Of a stretch of DNA of 64,000 bases, positions 9,970 to 60,641 are shown piece by piece (position 1 is the first letter of the stretch; the number at the start of each line of letters is the position of its first letter). Made by a program: the position numbers and the translations under genes. This DNA is from Muricea muricata (taxonomy: Eukaryota > Cnidaria > Anthozoa > Malacalcyonacea > Plexauridae), in NCBI GenBank assembly GCA_963855995.1, contig OY979723.1, positions 4,376,884 through 4,440,883 of the forward strand, in the 5' to 3' direction. The notes below the pieces were generated by a model. The model worked only from the letters and a program-made list of their open reading frames with translations, ran no database searches and was not told where the DNA came from.

Positions 9970-10379
9970 GGTGTACAAGCAGCGATCAGTTTTTTTCTGC
10001 GTAGTTAGCGTTACATCTAGGGCATTTAAATTCATAAACAACAGGGCTTTGATAAATTCTCAGCGTTTGGTCTTTAGTAGTTCTCCAGTTGACAATAAAT
10101 TATAGTTCCATATATTTACCAAAGAAAGTTAAATTAATCCGCATTTTGATTTTTGTCGGCTCGATTGTGGTGACAGTGACAGTATTAAATGCATAACATG
10201 AGTAAATGGTTTGAATAATGTTAACAGTTTTCTAAAAGTTTTTGGGAGAACCATTCCATGACATAAAAGTAGCAATATTGTTCAATTCAGTTTTGAGGAG
10301 TTCATCGTTGCTGCAAGCAACAAAGACGCTGAAATAATGTCAGTATTGACGAGCATGGGTACGTTGGTTTGCGGTAGAT
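9970..10379 (-). pseudogene. Penelope-like element, C-terminal part
   Basis: On the minus strand, starting at 10379, the frame SIYRKPTYPC is the block that follows the Penelope-type reverse transcriptase. It continues through degenerate sequence to LTFFGKYMEL, TLRIYQSPVVYEFKCPRCNA and NYAEK, the beginning of a GIY-YIG endonuclease domain with its CxxC. Stops and frame changes are frequent, and the endonuclease is truncated near 9970. The N-terminal part lies at 15395-15845; the two halves are separated by the 5.0-kb element. Confidence 0.75.
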
Positions 10380-10382
10380 AGA

Positions 10383-13300
10383 CCGTTGGCCGTGGTGTCA
10401 AAATGGCCATCTAAAACTAGTTGTGTAGCACACCCCCCGAGACAAAGTGAACTGTGTTTATTCTATAAAATTAGTACATGAGAAGTTCAAAAACAAAAAG
10501 TTCCCGCATTTATCTTCTGCAGTTTTTGAGAAAACTGATGATAAAGAAATGAGTAATAATGAGACTTTACCTGTACACGCTAAATCGTCTATTTCTTTAG
10601 GGAACATTGTGTTTCCAAAATTTCAGGTAAATTTACCATTTTCGAGCATGTTGAATACGAAACTGCAAATATTGGGCTAGATCAAATTTTCGTTTTGTCG
10701 TTATGACCATTTGAAATTGTGCTGACGTCAGCAAATATTTCTTAACACTTATTTATATCAGTTGCTCGTCCAATTCATAATCTGAATCATCATCGGAACT
10801 TATTGTATCGTCCTGGGCATATTGTGCAGCAGCCAAATCTTGATTGGAACAATTTTTGCACTGGCACACTTCTGTGCACTTCAAACTTGCTCGAATGCAG
10901 GAACACCGCCGATTCTGGCATCCAGTCTTGCAACCGCATGTCACATTTTCAAGTAATCCTTCTGGGGCACAAGACCTTGTCATCCATCGCACAACTAATT
11001 TATCGCCTTCAAACATCCAGCCAGACTCGCTAGGACTGGGCAAGTTCAAGACATTCGATAAACTATTTTTCCAGATGAATGCTTGGTAATTAGAGCGCAG
11101 AAGATGCTGCTGCAACGTGTCATCATTTGGCGGGAGGTTTTCTTCCGCAAACTTTCCAAGTTTGAATAGATTGTGTCTGGCAACATTCACTTCAACAGCA
11201 TCCTTTTGGCCATATAAAGCACAAACGTACTTTTGAATTTCATCACCAAGATTATCCACAGGGGGGATTCGCTCTCCAATTTTTGCACATGATTCCAGGT
11301 ATCCTTGGCTTTTAGCTAACGTGAGGGGAGTTTTTTTTCCCTTGCCGAAGAATGCGCTTGTCGAATCACATCCTAAAATAGAAATTAAAGAACGTGACTT
11401 ATCATTGCATTTGTTCCTTACGACTACACCTGTACTAGAACATATGCGAGACTTAAATTCGCATCTCTAACATTTTATGAAATATTGAAAAACGGTTATA
11501 AAATTTGAATATACTTATGCACACCTGTGAGTGCATGAAGACCGGGGAGTGCCATGCACACGTCTCTACCAATTGCGATTGCTATCGCATCTATTGACAA
11601 AATTCTGTAGGCATCCCGTGCACCGGTTTCCAAAAAGAGTGATGACGCAAGAAACCACTTCAAGTACAATGCAGTGACAAAGACATCTGTGTCGAGGCTC
11701 TTTATAACAATGTTTTCATGATTTCGAGAAGCATGTAGGGCGTGCAAAAACATTCTAGTGTCAGCCTCTTCGTGATCACATTGAAGTTCCTGTATTTCTT
11801 CTACCACAGCACCATTTTCAGAGGGGGCGATGCTATGGCGTTCATTACCATGTGTAACATATACTGGTATTGATCTTAGTACTACAGGGTTGCACTTTGA
11901 CCAACATTCAAACAGAAATTGCATAAGTGCTTCTTTATTTGTTCCCGTTGCCATGAACTTTTGCCACTGTTTTGGCCTTTTCTGCTCTCGGCCGTATATT
12001 CGGACAACTTGCGCTCCTGCGTTTGCTCTTCTTTCCCTTTCAGTTCCTTTAATACTTGCTTTGGGATACAGATCGCCTACAAAATCAACCCGTGTAGACT
12101 GGTGACGCTTTGCCATGCCTATAAGCATTGAAAGGATTTCGTCTGCAAGATCACCGAGGGTATTTGCTTCACATTTGGTTAGTTGTTGAAGCAATGCCAT
12201 TGCATCGACCACGAGAGCATTTGGAGCTGGTACTTCACTGACAATTGGATTTGGTACCGACTCTTCTATAGCATGCATAAGCTTTGCTTTATCAGTTTTA
12301 ACCATACTACCGTTGATGTTGGCAAAAGGTAGGGGAGCTGATTTGAGAGCATATGAAAGGAGCTCTTGGGTGTCAATATTTCGTGACTTTCCAATAAGAA
12401 GTAAGCGAGCAAACAAGTCCCGGTCGTTTTTTAACGAGCAATTAGCTCCACTAGAATTCTTGGACGCGATCCCTTTGGACATTGAGGAGAACGTTTTTAG
12501 TTTTGCTTTCGTCATGGGTGAGTATATATCTGGTTCATCAACCAGTACTCTCTCCTTCAAAAAACTCATCAGTTTGGCCTCTCCAATGGCGTACGCCTGC
12601 TCCATATCAACTGATGTTGCTTCATCTGCAACTGTACCTGTTGATAACTGCAATATTTCTTCAAGTTGAAGGTCGAAAGGATTTATCATGGATTCAATTG
12701 TTCTAATTACATTACTGACAGCTGCCTCATCGCGTTTTTGTCTCGATAAATCCAATTCTTTGCGATCTCTATAAAAGTGAGATAGCAAGATTGATAGTGA
12801 AAATTAGATGAAACTATTTGGAGGAAATGTTACTAAGGGATTTTAACGAGATCCATGCAGTAAACTGGATATTTACAACTGACAATACAACTGATAAACA
12901 TTTACACAAACGCTAACACACTCAGATATTTTTAGAAAAAATAGCGTTTGCTTCAATTTAGGTAATTGCTTTTTACCTGAAACCAGTAGAAATATTTGCC
13001 ATAGTTTGACATTCATTAGTTATGGCAGCACGGTCGGATTGCGATAATATCCACCTTTGCAATGCACCTCGGTTTAGTGTGAATCCGGTAACTCTACCTG
13101 CAAGTATTGTAAAAGTACAACACTTCAGTAAAAGCATAAACGAATGTGTCTCCTTAAAAGATCAATATTACTGTAGCTGTGCATGATTTTACGTAAACTA
13201 TCTAAATTTAAAAGGCACATGAATTCTTACTTTCTGTACAACACAAAGACAATCACTTAATTATAGACAAAAATACATATTATACTGTAATAACCTTTAG

Positions 13301-15391
13301 TTTTGGCATCCCTGTTACATGTTTGTTCAATGGTCTGATCACAAGCCGTTCCTGAGAAACCATAATGTTTCTGTTATTGAACAGTCCAGTTGAGTTTAAG
13401 GTCATCAATCACACCTGCAGTAAAGTATATGCAACGAGTAAAGAAAACGATTGTAAAGAGTTATTTACCTTTAGTACGTGTACATCTAGACTTCCACTTT
13501 GTAAAAATATAACACATTTCACAGTCATAAGAGGTTCACTCATTTTATAAAAGTTTTGTCTTCAGCAGGTCACAATTTGATTCAAAACTGCATTACCTGG
13601 ATGAGTGTCTTGTACACATAACATTTCAAGCCAATATAATGGAAAATATCTGGCGTAGTTTACACGGTCATATGCGAAGAACCAGGGCAACATCGATCTA
13701 ATGGCTGATAAATGGAGATCCCAATCTGTAGTTCGCGTTGCTCTGACAAATAACAAAAGCAGTTGAGCCATCTCTACGTATGATGACCACAATGCAAATG
13801 TCTTACATGCGCTGTTACCCTGATTTACATATGCTGCATAACGTTCACAAATCTGATTGAACTCATCACTTTTTACTGCGGCTAAGAATGCTTCTTCTGG
13901 ATACTTTTCGGTCATATCTTTTATCACATTACACGATTGAATTTGTTCTGCTTCTGTCATAGTTGAAAGGAATGCCTTGAAACGTATCCGTTGCAGGGCC
14001 TCGCTGACAGTCTTATGAGATCTTAAGGCTCTATTGTAGTGTTTTCCGGACATTACACCGCTTACAGAACCAACAGCGACGATATCTGATTCAACAATCA
14101 AATCCTATAACATATTTAATAAAGAATCAGGCTAGGTCATGTCAGGTGTTTGTATTTGATGCTATATTGATGAAGAATAAATACAACATTGGGATGTGTG
14201 TTTGTTACGTACGTTTAAATATTGCGATTGTTCCGCATTCAGAAATATCTGAACGACTAATCACAATGTTTAAATGTACCTTTACATCAAAATCATAATT
14301 TGCAAGAACGTTTTTACCCACTTGTGTACTACAGTACTGTACCTGAAGACCAGCATCCTGGAATCTCTTTGCAATAGCACTACAAAAGGACATTATGGTG
14401 TGGAATTCACCAAGTCTGACAATAAATCGACTTTTGTAAGCAGAGTCCATCCATCTGATATGTTGTATTTTGGCATACACTGCCTCGTCAAACACTAGTA
14501 CCATAAAATTCAACTCCAACTTGTTCGCCATTTCAAGACTTCGCTTTAAAACTTCTTTGACAGTTGAGTAATCTGTTACTGGAGCATCAATGGCAGGGAG
14601 ATATGCTATGGTTGAGTTGACAAGCTTAGGTTTTGATAAAAGGGTATTGAACCCAGTCCATCCAGGTAGTAAATTGTTATTTCCTGTAATCTCTGGTATT
14701 TTGCTTGTGACATATGCCAAGTAGTTTCGTAGGAGTTACCTTGACACTTTCTGGTTTATCTATTAAGCTGCGAGTAAGTGGTCGCATTTTCTCCTCCAGA
14801 TTCACTATTTGCTTGTTGTGTTTAAGGTCCACCTTTTTAAGCCGAGTCGCTGCTCTTTCCATTTTAGTTTTATCGGTAAATCTTCGGTAACATTCCTTGT
14901 GATAAAAGAACGGCGGAGAATCATTCTCATAACACAATTGTTCTTGTTCAATCGTCAAAAATTCCAAAGATTTTTCAGTGATTTCCCTTTGTTCTCCATC
15001 TAAATGAAGCCATTCATTTCTGCGTTCCTTGAGTCGGTCGAACGTACATGACGTAAATTGAATTAAAGGCAAAAAAGCATCGACTTTTGAGAAATGAATA
15101 ATGCAGAAGCTCATATTTCAAAAATTTGAATATTAGTAAACAGCCGCCATGTTGAATTTCACCTATTGTTCCCAGTTCTTTTGATGCTATGAAAGCACAC
15201 GGCCTGAAGGCAAAAAGCGATATTTTTGCCAGGTTTTACTGTCAAATTCTGAAAAAACTGCAAGTGGAATTCATGGGAACTTTTTGAATTTATGCTTTGT
15301 ATAGTTCAAGTAATTGGTCTCAATTGTTAAATTTTTGTCTCGAGAGGTGTGCTACACAGGTGAAGATTTTGACACCACGGCCAACGGCCTA
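10383..15391 (-). mobile_element. 5.0-kb inverted-repeat element with a nuclease/CXC gene
   Basis: The left end (10383) reads CCGTTGGCCGTGGTGTCAAA and the reverse complement of the right end (about 15388 inward) reads the same. A second block of shared inverted sequence, TGTGTAGCACACC then CGAGACAAA, lies about 30-60 bp further in. Both ends are flanked by AGA (10380-10382 and 15392-15394), a possible 3-bp target duplication. The element interrupts a Penelope-like element. Conceptual removal joins the two Penelope halves in frame (LDIQILKKVSLS to IYRKPTYP), which shows that this is a true insertion and fixes the ends. The only coding content is the six-exon minus-strand gene at 10753-15114; no standard transposase is present. 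About 230 bp at the right end upstream of the gene could hold its promoter. Confidence 0.82.
10753..15114 (-). pseudogene. FEN/XPG-like (PIN) nuclease with CXC zinc domain, six exons
   Basis: Exons on the minus strand: 14343-15114, 13597-14104, 13295-13415, 12977-13097, 11525-12768 and 10753-11372; phases agree apart from the lesions. About 1,100 residues in total. Exon 1 has a His/Cys-rich start (MSFCIIHFSK, YHKECYRRFTDK), then LLPGWTGFN and VFDEAVYAKIQHI; exon 2 has SGKHYNRALRSHKTVSEALQ and PWFFAYDRVNYARYFPLYWL; exon 3 CDQTIEQT; exon 4 VTGFTLNRGA. Exon 5 holds acidic motifs typical of a PIN/flap-nuclease fold: VVDAMALLQ, DHEEADTR and DTDVFV. The exon 5/6 join gives LHALTG plus CDSTSAFFGKGKK, the last acidic motif. 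Exon 6 ends with a CXC/tesmin-like pattern (C-x-C-x3-C-x4-C-x-C-x7-C-x3-C-x-C-x2-C) and an acidic tail. Lesions: frameshift near 14736, stop at 13375-13377, one extra base near 13320. I recognise it as a recurrent uncharacterised family in cnidarian and fish genomes (from memory); the nuclease role is inferred. Confidence 0.8.
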
Positions 15392-15394
15392 AGA

Positions 15395-15845
15395 CAGTGA
15401 TACCTTTTTAAGTATTTGAATGTCTAGAAAATGTATATGTCATTGTCAGAAAATTTGTCAATAGTAAACTGTGCATGACTGTCAAAGGTATTGAAAGTAT
15501 TAGGTACATGTTCAACGTCAGAAAGTCATCTACACAGCCTTCATTAAAGACTATTTTGCCCGAGTTAATAAATGGTTTGACGATAACAGTTTCGAATTTA
15601 GTTAAGATTATGTTAGCTAAGGTTGGACCTAATCGTGAACCCATAGAAGCACCATTGGTTTGTATATATAGTATTCTCAATTGAGTGAGAAAATAGTTAA
15701 CGTTATAGGTTTCTTATATAAGTGTACCTTTCGTAAGAGTCGTCAAGATTAGTTTGCACTAATTAATTCGATTTAAGATTATGTCAACAGTTCTCTTTTG
15801 AGATTTGACGTCAAAGGAAACGTATTCTAACTCACATTAGTACAA
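15395..15845 (-). pseudogene. Penelope-like element, reverse transcriptase part
   Basis: The minus strand shows VSFDVKSQKRTVDIILNRIN near 15770-15830. From 15680 down come IQTNGASMGSRLGPTLANII and CVDDFLTL (the catalytic YVDD with Tyr to Cys), then FLDIQILKKVSLS ending at 15395. This is the order of Penelope-type reverse transcriptase blocks. Internal stops show decay. It continues at 10379 on the other side of the inserted 5.0-kb element. Confidence 0.8.
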
Positions 15846-15879: not shown

Positions 15880-17690
15880 GATTGGCTACTCTACTCGCTA
15901 TCTATTCCTCAGTAGATAGCGAGTGGCGAAACCAGCGCGATATTTAAAAAATGGCGTCTGGTTCTCGCTTTTCTGATGTTTCTGAGGACAAACTTGGTTG
16001 TTTACTCGAAAATGCAATTCCAGAGAAGACCAAAGTGGCCACAAAATATGGCATCAAAATAATTCAAGATAAAAATCTAACAAAAATGGTTTGAGTTTTG
16101 TACTGTGATGTCAACAAACTGTATCAAAACAAAAAGTCTTACGCGACAAAAATAACTAAATTTTGTAGAATGGTTTGCAAGTCAAGACAAATTTACAACT
16201 CCTATAGAGAAGCAGTCAAAAACGGAGCTGAATAAATGCCTGCAGTTGTTTTACGCCTGTGTTTGACAGAAAAATGGGACGTGCTTTAAAATTGCTTCAC
16301 TGAAAGCTATCCGAGCAGCACTTGACCGCAACCTAAGACAACCACCACACAACAAACCTTGGTCGATTGTTGGCGACCGAGAGTTCAGTTAGCAAATAAA
16401 ACATTGAATGCTGTCTGTGTTAACATGATGAAAGAGGGTAATATAGGGCCAACTATACACAAAAACCCCATAACAAACGAGCAAATGCAACAACTTTTCA
16501 AGACTGGGCAACTTGGCGAAGCAGAAACAAAAAATCCGTCTCAACTACTCCGAGCGGCTTGGTTTTACATTTCTTTCTACTTTGGAAAAAGGGGCCGCGA
16601 AAACCAACGGAAATTATCAAAACAAATGGTCGTTCTTCGTGAAACTCCAGGAAACAATAAGTATTATGAGCTACGAAGAGACTTACCTGGAGCAATGTTA
16701 GCCACAAAGAACCACCAAGGAGGTCTTGACGACAGTGCAGACGAGTCAGACGGCAAAATGTTCGAAACTCCTGATTCTCTTCGTTGCCAGTCAAAACACT
16801 AGAAAATTACTTGAAACACCCCCACCCCAAGCTGGAAAGCCTTTTTCAGCGACTAAGACCGAAATCTTCCAAATTCAACCCAGAAGTAGACGAGGTTTAG
16901 TTTTGTCAAGCGCCCATCGGTCAATCGATGCTGAAAAATATGATGAAAATAATGGGTCAAAATGCAGGTATCGAGCCCTATCTGACTGAACACTGTGTTC
17001 GTGCAACGTCTGTTACCGTTCTTTCTGACAGCAATATCGAAGTAAGGCACATAAAATCTGTTACGGGTCACAAGTCAGACCAATCGATCGATTCGTACAG
17101 CGTTCGGCCATCATTTCGTCAGAAGGAAAATATGTCGAACATATTAAGCAGTTTCATCAACGAAAGCAACGAAGACATTCCCCTGCTCCCTTCAAAATCA
17201 GTAAATCCTGTCTATGGTACTTTAGAGATTCAGTCTTTTGCTCGAGAATCATCGATATCAAACCAAAGAATTCAGAATATCCACCCAAACTACTTGAATC
17301 AACTGCAGCCATACACGTTCAACAACTGCTCGGTTTCGACTATAAACAACTATAGCTATCGTTGATCTTCAAAACTATTTGTCAACCAAAAAGATTAGTT
17401 TGTTGCTCATTTATATCTCGACCAAGAAGTTAATTTTTTTTTTTCAGTTGCCATACTTTAGAGACCTTGTAAGAATATTAACCTTTACGGTTGACTTGTT
17501 TGCAAAATACGGATTGTACGAAAGAATACATGCATGCGGAAACAAATGTGGTGCCATTTTCGTGACGTACATCCGTTATTAATATGTTAATTTTTTTCGT
17601 TGAAATAAATTTTACTGAACTATGTATATATTTTTGTTTGAAGTAAGGAACGATTCTACTAAAACAATTAGATTACTCGTAATCTAATTG
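15880..17690 (+). mobile_element. Crypton-type element
   Basis: The left part holds an imperfect inverted repeat, actcgctatctattcctcag followed by tagatagcgagt (15890-15922), directly before the recombinase start at 15951. The right part ends in a 26-bp perfect palindrome at 17665-17690 (CAATTAGATTAC, 2-bp centre, complement). A polyadenylation-like AATAAA occurs near 17604. The boundaries are approximate because Cryptons lack terminal repeats. Confidence 0.55.
15951..17365 (+). pseudogene. Crypton tyrosine recombinase (DUF3504 / KIAA1958-like), broken
   Basis: The start MASGSRFSDVSEDKLGCLLE is at 15951, followed by IPEKTKVATKYGIKI, and then stops. The central part is open at 16359-16802 (EQMQQLFKTGQLGEAETKNP, AAWFYISFYFGKRGREN, GAMLATKNHQGGLDDSADES). 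After further frame changes, 16928-17365 carries the catalytic end: LTEHCVRATSVTVLSD with an Arg, HIKSVTGHKSDQSIDSY with His and the expected Tyr nucleophile. Such recombinases move Cryptons by site-specific recombination. The catalytic residues persist, but the reading frame is interrupted at least three times. Confidence 0.85.
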
Positions 17691-18569: not shown

Positions 18570-21500
18570 CTTGTCAGAAATTAACAGGGGGGGAGGGGGG
18601 GGGGGTGGAAATATTGAACTTAAGGTTGGAAATGAGGTGACCCATCTAAGCAATAAGAACGAAATTTCCTTACCCTCCCCTTGGGCCTAGCATAAAACAC
18701 CATGACCCTCCCCTGTATCATCAGGTGATTTAATACAAAAGTTCAGTTTATTTACACACACACATAAAACGTTTACACTATAAGACTTTAATTTTTCTGA
18801 ATTAGATTGGAACTCTAATACTTCCTCCAGCCAAAATGTTTCAGTAAACTCACTGTGCAATTCCAAGATCTCGTTAGTGATTTTTTCCTTGAACAAGTTA
18901 ACCCATTTCCCACGCGGAAAAACAACATCCTTGACCTAATCTTTACCAACACCCCTGAGGCTGTTACTGATGTGGCATGTATATCATCAAAGTCAATGGA
19001 CACCTTCAGCGACCATAATCTTCTTTGAGTATAACGTGTCCGCCAAATTATCGTCCTGTGACACGCGAACAGTTCTAGATTATCGTTCAGCAGATTGGGA
19101 GGGTTTATTCAAGACTCTTACATCGATTAACCTTTCTTCGTTAATATCCTCAGATGAACCTGACAACAATCCCAGCAAACCTACTCACAACTCCAACAAC
19201 TCAAATACCAACTCGGGTGATATTGACAATAATTGGCAACGTTGGTGTAACTGTTTTATGGATGCTGTGTATCTTCATATTCCAACAAAAGTCATCAAGA
19301 AACGCAAATATCTGCTATGGTTTGACAGCGAGGTCAGGCATCTGTTGAACAAAAAGGAAACAGCTAGAGGAAGAGCAAAAAGAAACCTAAAACGAACACT
19401 TGGGAAACATTCCGAGATCTTCGGCGGGCTTGTAAATCCCTTCTGTCACAAAAACGTAAAGAATTCTTTCAGAACTTACTTAAAGCTAGCCCAAAAAGTT
19501 TTGGTCATTGTTTAAATCCGTGTCAAATACGTCCAGTGTGCCGAGCAAAATGACCTGGAAGCGTAAAGAAGGTAATGTTACAGCTGAAAACCCAGAGGAC
19601 GTTGCAAACCTTTTAAATAACTACTTCCAATCCATGTTTAATCCTCCCTTGTCCCAAAAAGAGTATGATAATCATCCATCTTCGACCACCTCGTCGCTAG
19701 ATGTAAACAAAGCCATGGGTCCAGACAAAATTCCAGCAAGGCTACTCAGATGCTGTGCACCCTATATCTCGTCATTGTTAAGTGATCTCTTTAATAAAAG
19801 TCTGAATACCGGGAAAATACCAAAAGAATGGAAGACCTCAAATATTACACCAATTCTTAAAAGTGGTCAAAAGAACGAAGCCTCAAATTATCGGCCCATC
19901 TCTCTACTCTCCATTGTATCAAAAATCTTGGAGCGTTGTACCTACAGTCAACTAATCAACCATCCATCGTGTCAACTACACAACCTCCAATTCGGATTCC
20001 TCAAGGGAAAGTCTACAACATCACAGTTACTTCAAGTTCTTCACGATATTGGCGAGTCACTCGTTAAAAGAATTCATACTGACATTCTTTACTTGGATTT
20101 TGCTAAAGCCTTCGGCAAAGTGGACCATCAGCTGCTAATCAAGAAATTACGTAGAGTCGGAGTTGGCGGAAACCTGCTTGCCTGGTTTGAAAACTATCTC
20201 ACTGACCGCCATCAACATGTCACAGTCCTAGATAAGACATCGCAATCAATACCAGTCCTGTCAGGTGTTCCTCAAGGCTCAATCCTTGGTCCACTATTAT
20301 TCCTCGTTTATGTGAACGATATACCCCTAATCACCACATCATCGTCCGTAGCACTGTTTGCTGATGATACCAAGTGTTGTCGTGCCATACGAACAACAGA
20401 GGACGTTAAACATCTTCAATGTGATCTTGATGGAATTAACGAGTGGTGTCAGATGTGGCGTATGAACCTCAACCAGTCAAAATGTGGTCTTCTCAGTGTG
20501 ACAAAATTAAAAATCGAAAACAAGTTCTGTCAGGCTACCACCTGACCAATGATGCCCCACTAACACCTCAATCATCAACAAACGAACCGCCCAAAAAGAT
20601 GTCAGAGTTCATATCACCACATATCTCAAATGGAACCACCAAATATCTGCAGTGTGTACTAAAGCCAACAAAATGCTGGTATTTGTAAAAAGATCTACCA
20701 TCAACATGACCAACTCTCGTACCGTTGTACACTATACAAGACGTTGGTACGCAACCACTTCGCATACAGCTGTCAAGTTTGGTCACCGCAGTATGTTTCG
20801 CTAATCCTTGATATGGAAAAGGTTCAAAGACGAGCAACAAGGTTTATCATGTCGCTGCCCTATCAATCCGAAACCTGCTACAAAGACCGACTGCTAAAAA
20901 CAGGGTTACTCCCATTGAGTTACTGGCATGAATACTTAGACTTAATGTACTTCTTTAAAGCAGCATTGAGAAATGATCAAAACGTTACAACTACGTTACG
21001 TAATCGTGTCACTAGAAGCGAGATAACTAATGGTGTTAGTATAAAGATACCTAGAGTAAACACCTTAACTTATCAGAACAGCTATTATAACAGGACTCCT
21101 AGAATACTCAACAGTCTACCACCAAATATCCGTGGATCGGATGTTACGATTGGACAATTTAAGTCATACTTGTTGAAATATTATCATAAGATGACTGAAC
21201 AAGTACATGACTTTGAAGTTCCCCGAACTTTCAAAACTGTCTGTGTTAAATATTCCTGTCGTCCGTTGTCCAGTCTTGCAGATAAAATGTGTTGTAAGTA
21301 GATAGCCCGGTTCATCCGCTGACCTCAGATTGCTCAGATTTTTGCTAAATTTTACTTTTTTGGCTTTCGTTGATAGAAATTAAGCCTCGAAATATAGGTT
21401 AAGTAACGATCTCTTGAACATGCAGTTTCGTATTTTCACCTATTATCTGATTATCTTTCTGAGGACAACGAATAACCTTGTAAATATTGTTAAATTTAAA

Positions 21501-21789: not shown

Positions 21790-22935
21790 TGCCTTCAAGC
21801 AGCTCACTTATCAAGTTGAATCCGAGAATTGATGAATCCAGTGTAATTCGTTCTAATGGGCGTCTCAAGCTTGCAGAACAGTTACCTTACGAAGTACGCC
21901 ATCCCGTCATACTTCCGAGGGGACATTGGGTTACAAAATTAATTGTCAAGCATTACCACGAGAGAGCAAACCATAACGCAGGAGTGAACTTTATTCTATC
22001 CCAAATTAGTGAGAAGTATTGGATAATCGCAGCTAGAGACGAAATTCGTGATTGGGAAAAGGAAGGCAACTTTTGTAAACGAAGACGCAGCAGACCCGTC
22101 AACCAAATCATGGCACCTTTACCAAAGGTTAGGCTCCGTTTCACGTACTGCGCCTTTGATCAGTGTGGTATAGACTACGCTGGGCCATTCACTACCATCC
22201 AAGGACGTGGACGTCGACAGCAGAAGAGATGGTTATGCGTGTTTACATGCTTGTCGGTTCGTCCTGTTCATCTGGAAAACGGGCGGCGGCTATGGATACT
22301 GATGCATTTTTAAACGCATTTTCTCGTTTCACGAGTCGAAGAGGGGTCCCGAAAGAGTTCGTAAGCGATAACGGAACCAATTTTGTTGGCGCAGTGAACG
22401 AATTGAAGGAGGTTTTCAATCAATTGGACCAAGAAAAGATAAAGCGTAGGACATCAGCACAAAGATTAAAGTGGCTGTTCAGCCCTCCAGCAGGCCCGCA
22501 TTTCAATGGAGTACATGAAATCTTAGTTAAAGCTGCGAAGAAGGCAATATACGCAGTTCTTAGCAACGGTGTAGTTGCGGAATTAATTACAATCTTCACT
22601 GAAATGAAAGGATTGTTGAATTCAAGACCGTTGATGTATTTATCTGCTGATGTTCGTGACATAGTTCCCTTTATCCCAAACCATTTCTTACTAGGCAAAG
22701 ATGGCTCAAGGAATATTTACCAATGTTAACCGCCAGACCAAAATGGTATGATGCTGAAAAGAATTTAAAAATCGGTGCCGTCGTATTGCTTGTGCAGTCA
22801 GGATTACCACGGAGAAACTGGCCGCTGGGACGAATTGTTAATGTTTTCCCTGGGAAAGACGAACATACAAGAGTAGCGAAAGTGCAGTGTGGAGAGAAAA
22901 GACATTTTTGAGACCTATACATAAACTGGTTCCGT
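21790..22935 (+). pseudogene. BEL/Pao integrase, broken
   Basis: The His-Cys domain is at 21880-22090 (VKHYHERANHNAG, and FCKRRR where one Cys of CxxC is left). The catalytic core shows all three acidic residues: GIDYAGPF (22170), VSDNGTNFVGA (22360) and PPAGPHFNGVHE (22490-22520). MKGLLNSRPL and NHFLLGKDGS follow, and then a chromodomain-like tail, LPRRNWPLGRIVNVFPGKDE, at 22800-22865. Frame changes occur near 22260 and 22720. A G-rich polypurine tract at 22991-23007 directly precedes an LTR, as expected for the 3' end of a BEL element. The rest of this element is on the opposite strand at 23830-26479. Confidence 0.88.
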
Positions 22936-31489: not shown

Positions 31490-32172
31490 TGTTGCATGAA
31501 GCATTACACGAAGTAGAATCAGACTCTATTGTTCGTCACGATTTTCGCAGGGCTTCGACGCATTTTTCGCCTTTGCACAGCGTAACATTCCTCTTGCAAC
31601 AGGTCTCGCAATATTTTTCTGCCGTGCAGCCAATGAAAACTCGCTGTTTGAAAATAGTTCGTAGCCTCCACTCCAATATCAAGACAATTGCGAGACCAGA
31701 AAAGTTGCAAAATGTAGCATCCCTGCTCATGCAACTACAATTATAAACAACAACTACAACTGGTCGTTGCGAGAGGTAATTTTTCTTTGTAAACGAAGCT
31801 TACATAGTGTGTGTTGTTAATCCGATACACAGTTCATCCTTTACCTTACCTCAAGTACTCCCCCAGCTTTATAACCATGAAAATTCTGTCCATCGTTGCT
31901 GAAGGAAATCGTGTAACTCGTAACATGCTGATCGTTGTCTTGTCGTCCCTGAGTACTTATTGCTGTAATGAAGGCTGGTCGTTCAAAATTTACTTGCAGC
32001 CATTGATTTAGATCGAGTGTGGGTGGTGCCCATGCTCCCTTTCTTACATCCCATATTGTTTTCAAGTTCAACCGTGCATTGCGTGCTCGGACCAGGTTAT
32101 CATAATGCCTTGATGATGTGATTTGATGATCGCGAACTTGATCATTCTCCATTCCTAGAGTATTTACACAAT
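31153..32172 (-). pseudogene. F5/8 type C (discoidin) exon pair, frameshifted
   Basis: Exon 31850-32172 (phase 1 to 0, acceptor TTTATTAG, donor GAG/GTAAGG) encodes CVNTLGMENDQVRDHQITSS, NQWLQVNFERPAFITAISTQ, YTISFSNDGQNFHGYKAGGV, the first two-thirds of a discoidin domain. The matching last exon is 31153-31305 (acceptor TTTGTAG) with GNRDANTIVHQNITA and, in another frame, RFIRVHPTS, DWITMRVKFFGC and a stop. Compared with the intact sister exon at 52856-52999, it has a 4-base insertion just after the acceptor and a second frame change near 31230, so the domain cannot be completed. No PAN exon was found upstream; a LINE occupies 32700-34693. Discoidin domains bind cell-surface lipids or carbohydrate. 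Confidence 0.82.
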
Positions 32173-32699
32173 CTAATAAAAGTAAAAGAAATGTGATCCG
32201 AGAATGATGTGTGATCCGAGTATCTATAGCATTTCTTACATCCATTGAAACTACGTCGGTACAAGCATCAGCAACAAAATTATGGAAGTTGGGCAAATTG
32301 CGGACCGCCAAACACATTGCCGATGCATTTTAAATGCAAAGAGTGGGATATAATCGTTGCGAAAGATAACACGAACTTCGTGATCTAAAACTATCTATTT
32401 TGTCCGGTTTTTTGTGTTCAATATCAAAAGCACTAATATTTGATTGACAATTTAGTAAGTACATTAAGTTGGGTTTTGGAAACTTGAATCGGTACCTGAT
32501 CGCAATTTCATATTGTGTTTGTTCCAAAACGACATTAAAGTGGGCTCTCGTTGCTGTTTTATTCGTTTATGTATATACATTCATGACATCTGAATTATGT
32601 CATCAGATTGTGTGTGCACCAGGGCGCTTCCTGGTGTGCACCGATGAAAGTATACATACGAGTGTCCGCGTATCATAACTTGAAAAGAAAATCAGTTAT

Positions 32700-55800: not shown

Positions 55801-58797
55801 GTAGAAGCAATTTTGTAGCATTCTGTGAGTAAATATGACCCCCAAAATGATGCTTTTCTGACATGGAAAATAGTTGTTCGGAGCCGCTTCGGTTCGGTCA
55901 GATGAAACCTTTCATATTTTTTCAAAAATAATATTTGGCTACCTTATAACAATATTTTTTACAAAGAGGTGGGTCCCTTTTTAAAGTGCTTATGCAACGA
56001 AATTTCACCCTAAAGTTTTTTGACCTCAGTGTAGAGAGAACGTAAAATGCGTTGGTAACTTCTTTTACAGAAGTTCATTGTCTGGCTTCTTTCGTGAGAA
56101 ATTTAGCTTTGAATAATATGCAAATATCATACTTATGACATCATAGTGCATAATGTATTTTAATACAACATAGATTTTTCGAACAATTTAATTTTGTCGA
56201 ACAAAATTCCAAAATTATAACTTACAAATTCTGATTTGCTGTATTTTAGTGCAACTTTTGGAAATTTATTGTGGATACTTTAAGAAAAATTCCTACAGCA
56301 CTAAAAACTCATTATGCACTGTGATGTCATAAGTATGATATTTTCATATTATTCAAAGCCAAATTTCTCCCGAAAGAAGCAAAACGAAGAACTTCTGTAA
56401 AAGAAGTTACCAAGCCATTTTACGTTAACTTAACACTGGCGCCATAAAACTTTGGGGTGAAATTTCGTTGCATAAACACTTTAAACAGTTTCATCGTTCT
56501 TCTTTTACGACTTAAATTTAAAAACGCTTTATTGTCTTAAAACGATTCGAGACTTTGAAATATTTAATCTTATTTACGACGTTCCTTTGGTCCTTATAGG
56601 ATTAATGATGGTAAATAAGAGCATTAAAGTTTTTTAGCTATTCATAGATTTCTCGGCATTTTGATTATGCGGACGGTAGCGTAAGTAACTTGAGGTGGGT
56701 TCGACTTTGGACGCACCGCCTCCTTTAGTAAATAAGAAAGCGGCTAATACGCTAGGTATAGGATAAATCGTTTACTTTACCTTAAGTACTCCCCCTGCTT
56801 TATAACCATCAAAATTATTTCCGTTGTTGCTGAAAGAAATCTTGTAAGCCGTAACATACTGATTAAGTGGTCCTAGACCTTGAGTACTTATTCCCGTGAT
56901 GATGGACGTTTGTTGAAAATCCACTTGCAACCATTGATTCGTATTCCTTAACCCTGCGGCCCATCCTTTCCCAATTCTGTTCAGTCTTGCAAAAGATGGT
57001 GGAATGCCATTATAATGGCTTGATGCCGATATTTGATCATTGCCAATTTTACCATTCTCCATTCCCAGAGCTTTCGTACATTCTATGACGGATTAAAAAC
57101 ATTAATATTAGGTATTCAGTGGACTACCATAAAAACCCTGACCAATATTAAAATGGGTACGTAAAGCGTGCATATGTCTACTGTGACTTTATATATGGGT
57201 GACAGACAAATGTCAGAGACTTTTTATTTGAAACAATAAAATCAATGAAAAATATTTATTTTAAACCACTGTTGGTCATTGTTATTTGCCAGTAACATAC
57301 ACAAGCCCGCTTTGAATTATGGGCAAAAAATCCCAAAAAACTTTTAATTAATATTTAATTAGTATATCATGTTTCCTCCCTGTATTTATACAGGGTGTAT
57401 AAAAAAAGTAGACTAATCTGAAATTGCTCTCTGTTTCGCGAAGCGCCTCAATGTGCGATGTTTTTTTATTAAAATAGATGGTTTTGGTACTTATAATCTA
57501 GAATAAACCGGAAACATGCCAAATTTAAAGCTTCAATATCCGGGGGGTCTGTCTTTTACGGCAATTTGAATATGCCTTGCGCACAAAACTTAAATGCTTA
57601 CAAGTAATTTTAACTTAGTAGATGGAAAATTTGACGGGTGTTGTATTGCTGTACAAAATTTCAGAAGATTTGCTAGAGTCTAAGCCGTTCAAAACGTCGC
57701 GCGAACTTCCACATTTTTAGTTTATGTATCTACTTAATTTGCATACAACTCCCATAAGGGACATTTAATTAAAATTAGAACATTTCTTCAGAAAAACGAT
57801 TCTTATTAAGAAAAATATACGTTCGCATGACGTTTTGAATGGCTTAAACTCAATCAAATTTCTTGAAACTTTGAACAGCAATAAAACACCTAACATATTT
57901 TCTACCTACCAATTCAAAATTAATTTTGAGCGCAAGTCATTTTTAATGTGTTTCAAAAAACACACACCCCTGGGCTTGAAACATTTAAATTTCCGACTAT
58001 TTTTATTTATTCTACACCGTTAGTACCCAACCAATGTATATTGATAAAAACTTCATACTTCAAGCCGCCTTGCGAGGTTGAAAACCGTTTCAACATTGTC
58101 TACTTTTTTTATACACCCTATATATCCTATAGTATGCAATATTGTCATCATTTCATTCTTGATGATGAGTAATTAAAGAATAGCAAAAACGTTGAAATAA
58201 AAATGTTGTATGCGTTGAAAAAAATAATTACAAACCTGGTTGCAGTTGAGGTATTGCCATCTAAAAATAACCCAAATAAGTTTAGCGATAATATTAATAT
58301 TTTAGTAAGCGCTTACAGTAAAGAAGTGGCTTTGTTGATCTTAAGGCAATCAGTTCAATGGCAGTATTGGAAATATTTATCAAATAGGTAGGAAAAAAAA
58401 TTAAATTAGCAAAGCATTAGGTTAATATTCGACCATTTTTTTCATTTAGCGTCCTTCCTTGATTTTTTGTACAAGCATTTTATCCTTATCCATTCTTGCT
58501 AACTATTTTATTGCTTGCATTATCAGAGGTTGTTTGTATTGTTTTGTCACAATAAGTCTTCATAGTTTTTTCTTACCTGTTCCAAGTCTATATAAAAGAT
58601 CCACTCTCCCTTTGCACCAGTTTTTTGATCTCTTGCCTCAGTTTTATTACTGACTTGGCAGTTAATAGCATATTTGATTGATTTAGGTCTGTAGTTGTAA
58701 CCGACACATGTTGATGTTTGGAGACATTTTAACGAACATTCAACCTGAGAATGGACTGAATGACTGGATACAATATCTTGTTCTGGCAATGTGTCTC
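52856..58797 (-). CDS. Secreted PAN plus F5/8 type C protein, three exons seen
   Basis: Exon 58577-58797 (phase 1 start, acceptor AAAACAG, donor CAG/GTAAGA) encodes the PAN-like module DIVSSHSVHSQVECSLKCL, TCVGYNY, NCQVSNK. Exon 56781-57082 (phase 1 to 0) encodes the discoidin start CTKALGMENGKIGNDQISAS, NQWLQVDFQQTSIITGISTQ, KAGGVLK. Exon 52856-52999 (phase 0, acceptor TCTTCAAG) encodes VFQGNSDRNTIVHNDITPAI, NPTGWHWWIAMKVEFYGCFY and a stop. The last two join cleanly into one complete F5/8C domain ending with the usual Cys. The PAN exon ends in phase 0 while the discoidin exon starts in phase 1, so at least one more exon is expected between 57082 and 58577. The first (signal) exon was not found. 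The 3.8-kb intron holds a LINE and two DNA elements; the other intron holds a mariner-like element. Likely an extracellular adhesion or recognition protein. Confidence 0.78.
53782..53830. repeat. Perfect 23-bp-arm hairpin plus a third copy
   Basis: AGGAAATGAAGTTTGGCGAA (arm 53782-53804) is followed after 3 bp by its exact complement (53808-53830). A third copy of the arm in direct orientation lies at about 53870-53891, and a partial one at 53843-53857. Confidence 0.92.
53831..55769 (+). pseudogene. LINE reverse transcriptase (CR1/L2-type)
   Basis: 53846-54325 has KKSSGLKNIHTRFLKAGADV and VTPLRKSGSLSDPNNFRPI. 54360-54600 has SSFRLGHSTATCLF-like, LDLSKAFDLIDHTIL and a stop after KSFGI. 54627-54827 has RRGVQQESVSGPLLFL and YAYDTAIFF, where the catalytic ADD is changed to AYD. 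54942-55571 is open for 209 codons with IKYLGLIMDNNLNWHDHI, CDVVWSNADKTHLQRLLRLQ and ends with YWRETKQYV. The 3' end is AATAAAGTTTATTATTATTA at 55749-55769. Dead copy, 5'-truncated. Confidence 0.88.
55985..56480. mobile_element. TTAA-type foldback MITE (496 bp)
   Basis: Ends AGTGCTTATGCAACGAAATT and complement (aatttcgttgcataaacact). Arms of about 170 bp are similar throughout. TTAA lies directly outside both ends (55981-55984 and 56481-56484). Non-coding. Confidence 0.92.
57391..58120. mobile_element. Mariner-like element (730 bp), non-coding
   Basis: The left end CAGGGTGTATAAAAAAAGTA and the right-end complement tactttttttatacacccta match except for the last base; TA lies outside both. Long imperfect inverted arms extend inward (ccaaatttaaagcttcaata against gcttgaaacatttaaatttc). 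No transposase ORF. Confidence 0.85.
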
Positions 58798-60641
58798 CTG
58801 TTTTTATTAAAAAGAAAAAACGTGGAAATTGATGTAAGATATGAATCAGCAGGAAATTGATAGCTTGCCTTTTAAAGAGCTTGAAATATCAAGAAGTTTC
58901 CATTGCAGCGGATATAATGGTATAAAATCGCAAGTACTACAGCCCACTATGTCAATTACGCCTTTGTTCAACCTTCCTAGGATGATATACAATTCAATTA
59001 TACTGAATATGGTTTGAATAAGCTAGTAAAATGTGGATGAGCTCCATGAGGACTGCCATCTGTGGATAAATATTTTCACCCCATACAACCCCCCCCCCCC
59101 CCATAAAAACAAAAAAACATGCGCGTCGTATAACTCTTTGAAGATACGATCGATATAAAATAGATAGTTACGTATAACTATGACAAATCTAGAAGATTTT
59201 TTTCGCTTTGGTGCAAGTAACGCAAATTATTTCCAAGTAGTTATGAAGTGTAATCGTCGCTACTCGTTGCTTTAATCGTCAATAATCGAATTAATGTCGC
59301 TTGATCTCACTGGTGACGTTACATGCATGCACATGCATATTCTTTGAAGTTTAAATTTTTATTGAAATGGATCTAGTACAACAATAACTACAGTACAGTA
59401 GTACACTGGCATTTTAAACTTTTCACCTACATAAAATAAAGACCGATTACATATAAGGGGTGGACAAGAGTATAATAAAAAAGTTACTCCGAATAAAGTG
59501 TGCATATTAACAACACAATTTATGAATTGTATGATATTTAATAATGAATATTTAATTTTATGAATGAACACAATTTGATTCATCGTCAGCAGTGTTATTA
59601 AGATATCAATGTATTTTTGCTGTATTATTTTTGCTGAGACTATTAGCCGGGAAAAGATTTTACAAAAAGTATCCCCTTAAAAAATTGTTTATCTGGTCCA
59701 TAATGGATATATATCAGGAAAATGATCATATAAAATGAAACATTTTACATCTAAAATTTTCTCAGTATCTTATGGTAAAGTTTCAAATACATTCTAGTTT
59801 TCTAAAAAGTTGTTGTATTCTACAAGGCATGACAACTTGTTCCCGACTCAAAACACCTACACTTTTGCGTTTTATCCCGTCCCCCCCCCCCCCCCTCCTC
59901 GCTTTGAATTTCTAGCTCATTATTACCTCACATGAACGAAAAATTGGTTGAACTTTTCAAACAAAAGCCATCATTGTTTATGAGTCGTTCTTAAGAAAAC
60001 CAATTTCTATCATTAATTGTCTTTCATTGTTATAACCAACCATTCACAAAGCATGTTAGCATAGGTTGGTGGCGACTTAGGTAATTTAATAAATTCGACC
60101 TGCCAAAGGAAAATTCAGCTGTCGAAATGTAGTAATTGGACTTGAAGCAAAATTTGAACACTCAAACTTGGCTTAATAGCTTAAGCTGATTGGGATTTTA
60201 TTATAATGTCTGCCACGTGTCTATATTGTAGCATTTATTTTATTTTATTTTATTTCGTCATTAACGCATTTGTCTAATCACTCAGCGATGTTGCGTAAAA
60301 TTTTATGGTGCACTGCTCTATTCTTTTATGCCAAGACGTCTTTATGCTATGCGCATATATTAATTTCAATTGGAGGTTTTTATACATTTACTTCATAATG
60401 ATGTCTAGACGAGATACGAACATACATATGGATATATATAAGACTGGATAGTGCATCGTAGTACAAGACACAAATAAAATTAAAGCCGTAAACACGTCAT
60501 TTTTCGGGATCGGCGGCCTTGTTGAATTGCCCCAACCCAGAAGTGAATCGGTGTAGTTTCTTTCAGGAAACCATGGTTAATAGACCTAGATGGCTAGGCT
60601 AGTCAGCAAACTTCAAAGGGAACGGCTAAGTATGTCGAGAA
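58798..60641. other. No gene recognised; C homopolymers
   Basis: Contains two long C runs (59089-59102, 59881-59895). A minus ORF at 59359-59583 is unassigned. No signal exon for the PAN gene was recognised here. Confidence 0.4.

Follow-up and report, generated by a model that had tools for sequence, protein, structure and literature searches.

The locus described here raises the question whether a DNA transposon can rely on a flap endonuclease (FEN)-like nuclease as its transposase. It lies in a stretch of 64,000 nucleotides of the genome of the cnidarian Muricea muricata (assembly GCA_963855995.1, contig OY979723.1, positions 4,376,884 to 4,440,883), which is called the window throughout, and consists of an inverted-repeat element enclosing one gene. 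The original prediction, made from the letters of this DNA, had described the product of this gene as a FEN-like nuclease with a CXC domain and without a DDE motif, and had proposed an undescribed transposon class with a FEN-like transposase or helper. Our analysis gives a different answer. With high confidence, the element is interpreted as a copy of a young cut-and-paste DNA transposon of the AcademX type that has undergone an internal deletion and is non-autonomous, the filing under AcademX having been made by matching features against the published description. The proposed new class is unsupported because longer copies of the same element encode a DDE transposase domain.

The element spans positions 10379-15391 (5013 bp), starting with TAGACC at 10379 and closing with CCTA at 15391; the right end had been placed correctly, while the true start is 4 bp before the predicted one at 10383. 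Its terminal inverted repeats (TIRs) are 26 bp long and complementary at 25 of 26 positions. The left TIR (10379-10404, plus strand) begins with TAGACCGTTGGCC and the right TIR (15366-15391, minus strand) begins with TAGGCCGTTGGCC when read inward. The second, inner inverted block that had been noticed is confirmed as a subterminal pair of 25 bp at 10422-10446 (plus strand) and 15334-15358 (minus strand). The longest exact inverted match across the flanks of the gene measures 22 nt, compared with at most 14 nt in 2000 first-order resampled controls. A scan with the 20-bp TIR core found exactly two places in the window, in inverted orientation, and still two with three mismatches allowed (0.00 expected by chance), that is, no further copy of the ends within the window. 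The target-site duplication (TSD) AGA is found directly outside both ends, at 10376-10378 by empty-site comparison and TSD test and at 15392-15394 by TSD test. The element sits inside a dispersed repeat: its joined flanks (10241-10378 and 15395-15520) match the genome at 55 places, the window itself accounting for two of these. Three paralogous empty sites were retrieved, and they read GGTAGACA, in which AGA stands once only.

A search of the host genome (453 Mb) with the end pattern, allowing up to three mismatches, returned 13 matches compared with 0 in a reversed control, and these form six pairs and one orphan. The six elements measure 5013 bp (window copy), 6682 bp (L015), 5003 bp (L016), 7175 bp (L017), 6670 bp (L018) and 6655 bp (L019) and diverge from one another by 0.48-1.46%, a spread by which the family appears young. 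Gene, ends and 3-bp duplications belong together, as the original prediction had supposed: all six copies contain the gene and exact 3-bp TSDs flank five of them (AGA, TTG, TAA, TAT, ATT), the flanks of L019 reading ACT and AAA without a match. One flank per copy was aligned over about 400 bp outside the element, and these flanks look unrelated, with identity beginning at TAG; one end of L017 reads TAGTCC. The orphan (L020) reaches into the 3' portion of the gene before breaking off. An intact gene could not be demonstrated among the six copies. Apart from the in-frame stop that the window copy has in the exon carrying the catalytic E, a frame break lies directly ahead of the part with the first catalytic D in L015, L018 and L019, L015 and L019 have one stop each in the nuclease exon, the nuclease exon is split in L018 and its match stops early in L017, and the beginning of the last exon failed to align in L016. 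L017 also carries a 495-bp insertion in an intron (about 3485-3985 of L017) that the other five copies lack.

The window copy contains a single gene, as predicted, which is encoded on the minus strand and for which seven coding segments were placed in lieu of the six exons expected. The first segment (15114 down to 14740) encodes an N-terminal zinc-finger-like region (YHKECYRRFTDK), and its junction with the second is a deletion scar, marked by a 9-nt filler (14723..14731, minus strand). The deletion comprises about 1.66 kb and took a second zinc-finger region together with the first D of the catalytic triad (D1), which lies in VWDNCD in the longer copies. The second segment (14343..14722) holds what is left of the DDE exon, including D2 (the second D, VFDEAVY) and GEFH, and it is followed by the alpha-helical insertion of the DDE domain (13597..14104), the segment with the catalytic E (13295..13414, DQTIEQT), in which an in-frame TAA occurs at 13374-13376, and a further short segment (12977..13097). 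The bulk of the FEN-like nuclease (VVDAMALL, HEEADTR, DTDV) resides at 11525..12768, and the last segment (10753..11372) contributes the end of this domain (GCDSTSAF) and the C-terminal CXC (tesmin/TSO1-like) domain; the donor-side boundaries of 11525..12768 and 12977..13097 were shifted by one base to fit a GT donor. All four acidic motifs of the original prediction are thus present, as is its CXC domain. Its statement that a DDE motif is lacking holds for D1, which was lost through the deletion, and fails for D2, the GxFH motif and E, all of which the window copy keeps. For the element as such the statement was mistaken, since D1, D2 and E are complete in four of the six genome copies, namely the four longer ones, and the triad is near-invariant in relatives. 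A Pfam scan detected no named transposase family in the window exons.

This near-invariance was assessed in 57 aligned relatives picked from 120 listed, in which D1 and D2 are each present in 57/57 and E in 56/57. Foldseek with the full structural model gave no match reaching E 0.001, Rad2/FEN entries being on top, and the DDE part was for this reason folded separately. Its predicted fold matches the P-element, ISCth4, Hermes, Tn5 and RAG1 transposases by VIA-align, with the P-element transposase as the closest; Foldseek with this part found nothing below E 0.04, and the assignment leans on VIA-align and the conserved residues. Among 33 relatives scanned with Pfam, 10 matched DUF6589 at E 0.01, and no named transposase family was reported. 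The protein is predicted on these grounds to have a DDE transposase domain of RNase H fold with a helical insertion.

As to the nuclease, the identification in the original prediction was borne out. The predicted structure matches Exo1/FEN1/XPG, with the CXC domain lying behind, and the FEN fold is clear in the model; identity amounts to only 13-15% over the aligned part in the top ten structure matches. Likeness to these nucleases consists of the fold and the set of acidic active-site residues, which are conserved in the aligned relatives; unlike them, the domain here belongs to a transposon protein in which it is fused to a preceding DDE transposase and a CXC domain comes after it. Sequence profiles against the PDB gave weak matches to Exo1 (best E 0.039 and 0.046) and matches to the CXC domain of lin-54 (6e-4 and 9e-5). 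The CXC domain has nine conserved cysteine columns in the alignment of relatives. In the Pfam scan of 33 relatives, 21 match TCR at E 0.01, and in the window copy TCR is found at E 0.001, under the curated cut-off.

The deleted form is represented by two of the six copies. L016 agrees with the window copy in both deletion and filler, the two have 17 derived sites in common, and they differ at 25 of 5003 sites. They occupy different loci with different TSDs (AGA and TAA), and since the junction is common to both and the TSD is not, the deleted form moved after the deletion. From the compared sequences, a single deletion followed by transposition would explain both copies, the transposase presumably having been supplied in trans.

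The gene is not confined to this young family. With a Dendronephthya protein as query, at least 96 matches with 35-82% identity were found over many loci of the host genome, a lower bound as scoring covered 34 of the 1959 candidates from the first look; between the nuclease exon of the window copy and pieces of the other families, identity is 30-43%. For families A, B and D, the ends were derived from copy comparison and a motif scan, and five more copies with both ends readable were obtained (two of A, two of B, one of D), all of which start with TAG[G/A]CC and have 3-bp TSDs. In total, 3-bp TSDs occur in 10 of 11 two-ended copies from four families; among the tested lengths of 2-8 bp only 3 bp matches, and an 8-bp TSD is found in 0 of 11. 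Outside this count stand those with a single end, namely family C, of which the second end was not found, family E (L037), copy L042 of family B, and copy L035 of family A, whose one end as read is deviant (TATGGGCC); in L067 the other end was not found. Loci L034-L063, taken singly, showed no convincing TIRs in an inverted-repeat search because they contain just parts of elements. On a small contig (G000:C63:280706-308048), two related-family copies, oppositely oriented, are separated by about 20 kb. No relative was found in the viral collection. The prokaryote collection yielded one, on the eukaryote-like contig JAJRVU010000273.1 in a metagenome-assembled genome of Planctomycetota, where the gene begins at the contig edge; this is probably contamination.

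The Academ superfamily and AcademX are said to have been described originally by Kapitonov and Jurka in 2010 and by Kojima in 2020. The nuclease of AcademX is XPG-like, and Academ carries a Cys8 zinc finger according to Repbase. Our element was compared with these groups by description. In the published description, AcademX combines a DDE transposase with a nuclease and TSDs of 3-4 bp, while AcademH has TSDs of 9-10 bp, the length being related to whether a nuclease or a helicase is encoded (PMC10045372). The element resembles AcademX in its DDE transposase and nuclease, TIRs, 3-bp TSD and length of 5-7 kb, with no difference among the features so compared (PMC10045372), and a bivalve survey gives a mean of 5565 bp for 100 Academ consensus elements (PMC10294476). 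AcademH belongs by description to the same superfamily and differs by its helicase and 9-10 bp TSD in place of the FEN-like nuclease and 3-bp TSD found here (PMC10045372); Pfam scans of the window exons, of six relatives and of 33 relatives reported no helicase. The arrangement thus fits the known AcademX group and not a new transposon class.

Other explanations of the locus have to be weighed against this classification. An undescribed class that relies on the FEN-like nuclease itself as transposase or sole enzyme would agree with a clear FEN fold and with a window copy that has all FEN motifs and no D1. However, just two of the six copies are deleted, the four longer ones retain all three DDE residues between the same ends, the triad hardly varies among the 57 relatives, and the fold matches known transposases, so that this explanation is very improbable; moreover, the combination of DDE transposase, nuclease and 3-bp TSD is that of AcademX in the published description (PMC10045372).

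Somewhat less improbable, and still very unlikely, is an origin outside Academ, in a P-, hAT- or KDZ-like lineage with independent capture of a nuclease. The closest solved folds are those of the P element, ISCth4 and Hermes, the P-element and hAT (Hermes) transposases share the RNase H-fold DDE with helical insertion, and DUF6589 in a part of the relatives comes without a named transposase family. P and hAT elements have 8-bp TSDs, whereas 3 bp alone matches here, and the FEN and CXC domains are added in this protein; a nuclease together with a TSD of 3-4 bp is, again, what the AcademX description contains (PMC10045372). A FEN-type host gene lying by chance between unrelated inverted repeats was also considered, in view of its introns and of relatives annotated as ordinary uncharacterised proteins. 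Its probability is next to nil and it was rejected on the multiple copies: six share the same ends, five of them with exact TSDs, the aligned flanks are unrelated up to one common base at which identity sets in, and empty sites exist.

For an AcademX-type element, the following mechanism can be envisaged. The longer copies (6.66-7.18 kb) contain the complete gene, which specifies one protein composed of an N-terminal zinc-finger-like region, the DDE domain with its helical insertion, the FEN/Exo1-type nuclease and the CXC domain. The DDE domain would cut and join the TAG[G/A]CC ends and thereby generate 3-bp TSDs, the FEN domain would probably be a structure-specific nuclease with the non-transferred strand or flaps at the ends as its substrate, the zinc-finger and CXC regions would probably bind DNA, and the window copy would have been mobilized by a transposase supplied in trans. 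More speculatively, and by analogy, the protein may unite two nucleases in a single transposase chain and so be a eukaryotic counterpart of TnsB plus TnsA. Its P-element/hAT-like DDE domain would then produce the 3' ends and join them, and it would fall to the FEN/Exo1 domain to cut or trim the opposite strand at flaps or junctions and thereby to determine the 3-bp TSD. Copies that have lost no more than the D1 part retain FEN and CXC and might act in trans as helper or KP-like repressor. We regard this proposal as tentative; it agrees with two active sites that are both nearly invariant and with the remobilized deleted copy.

Further features of the window belong to other elements or genes. 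About 1 kb outside the element, at 16326-17365, lies a broken Crypton-like tyrosine recombinase in two reading pieces (DUF3504, E 1.6e-5; Phage_integrase, E 9.6e-6; both slightly under the Pfam cut-offs). A reverse transcriptase (RVT_1) of long interspersed nuclear element type and a weak integrase-core match under the cut-off, at 19490-20545 and 22160-22726, represent other elements, and pieces of F5/8 type C and PAN domains on the minus strand (31844-32329 and 58550-58888) are probably host genes.

The case shows that an internally deleted copy can mimic a new transposon class. It also provides a family that appears young, with well-defined ends, TSDs of 3 bp and empty sites. Many animal genes listed as uncharacterized or as tesmin/TSO1-like CXC proteins are now linked to a DDE plus FEN transposase, and what the nuclease does in it becomes testable.
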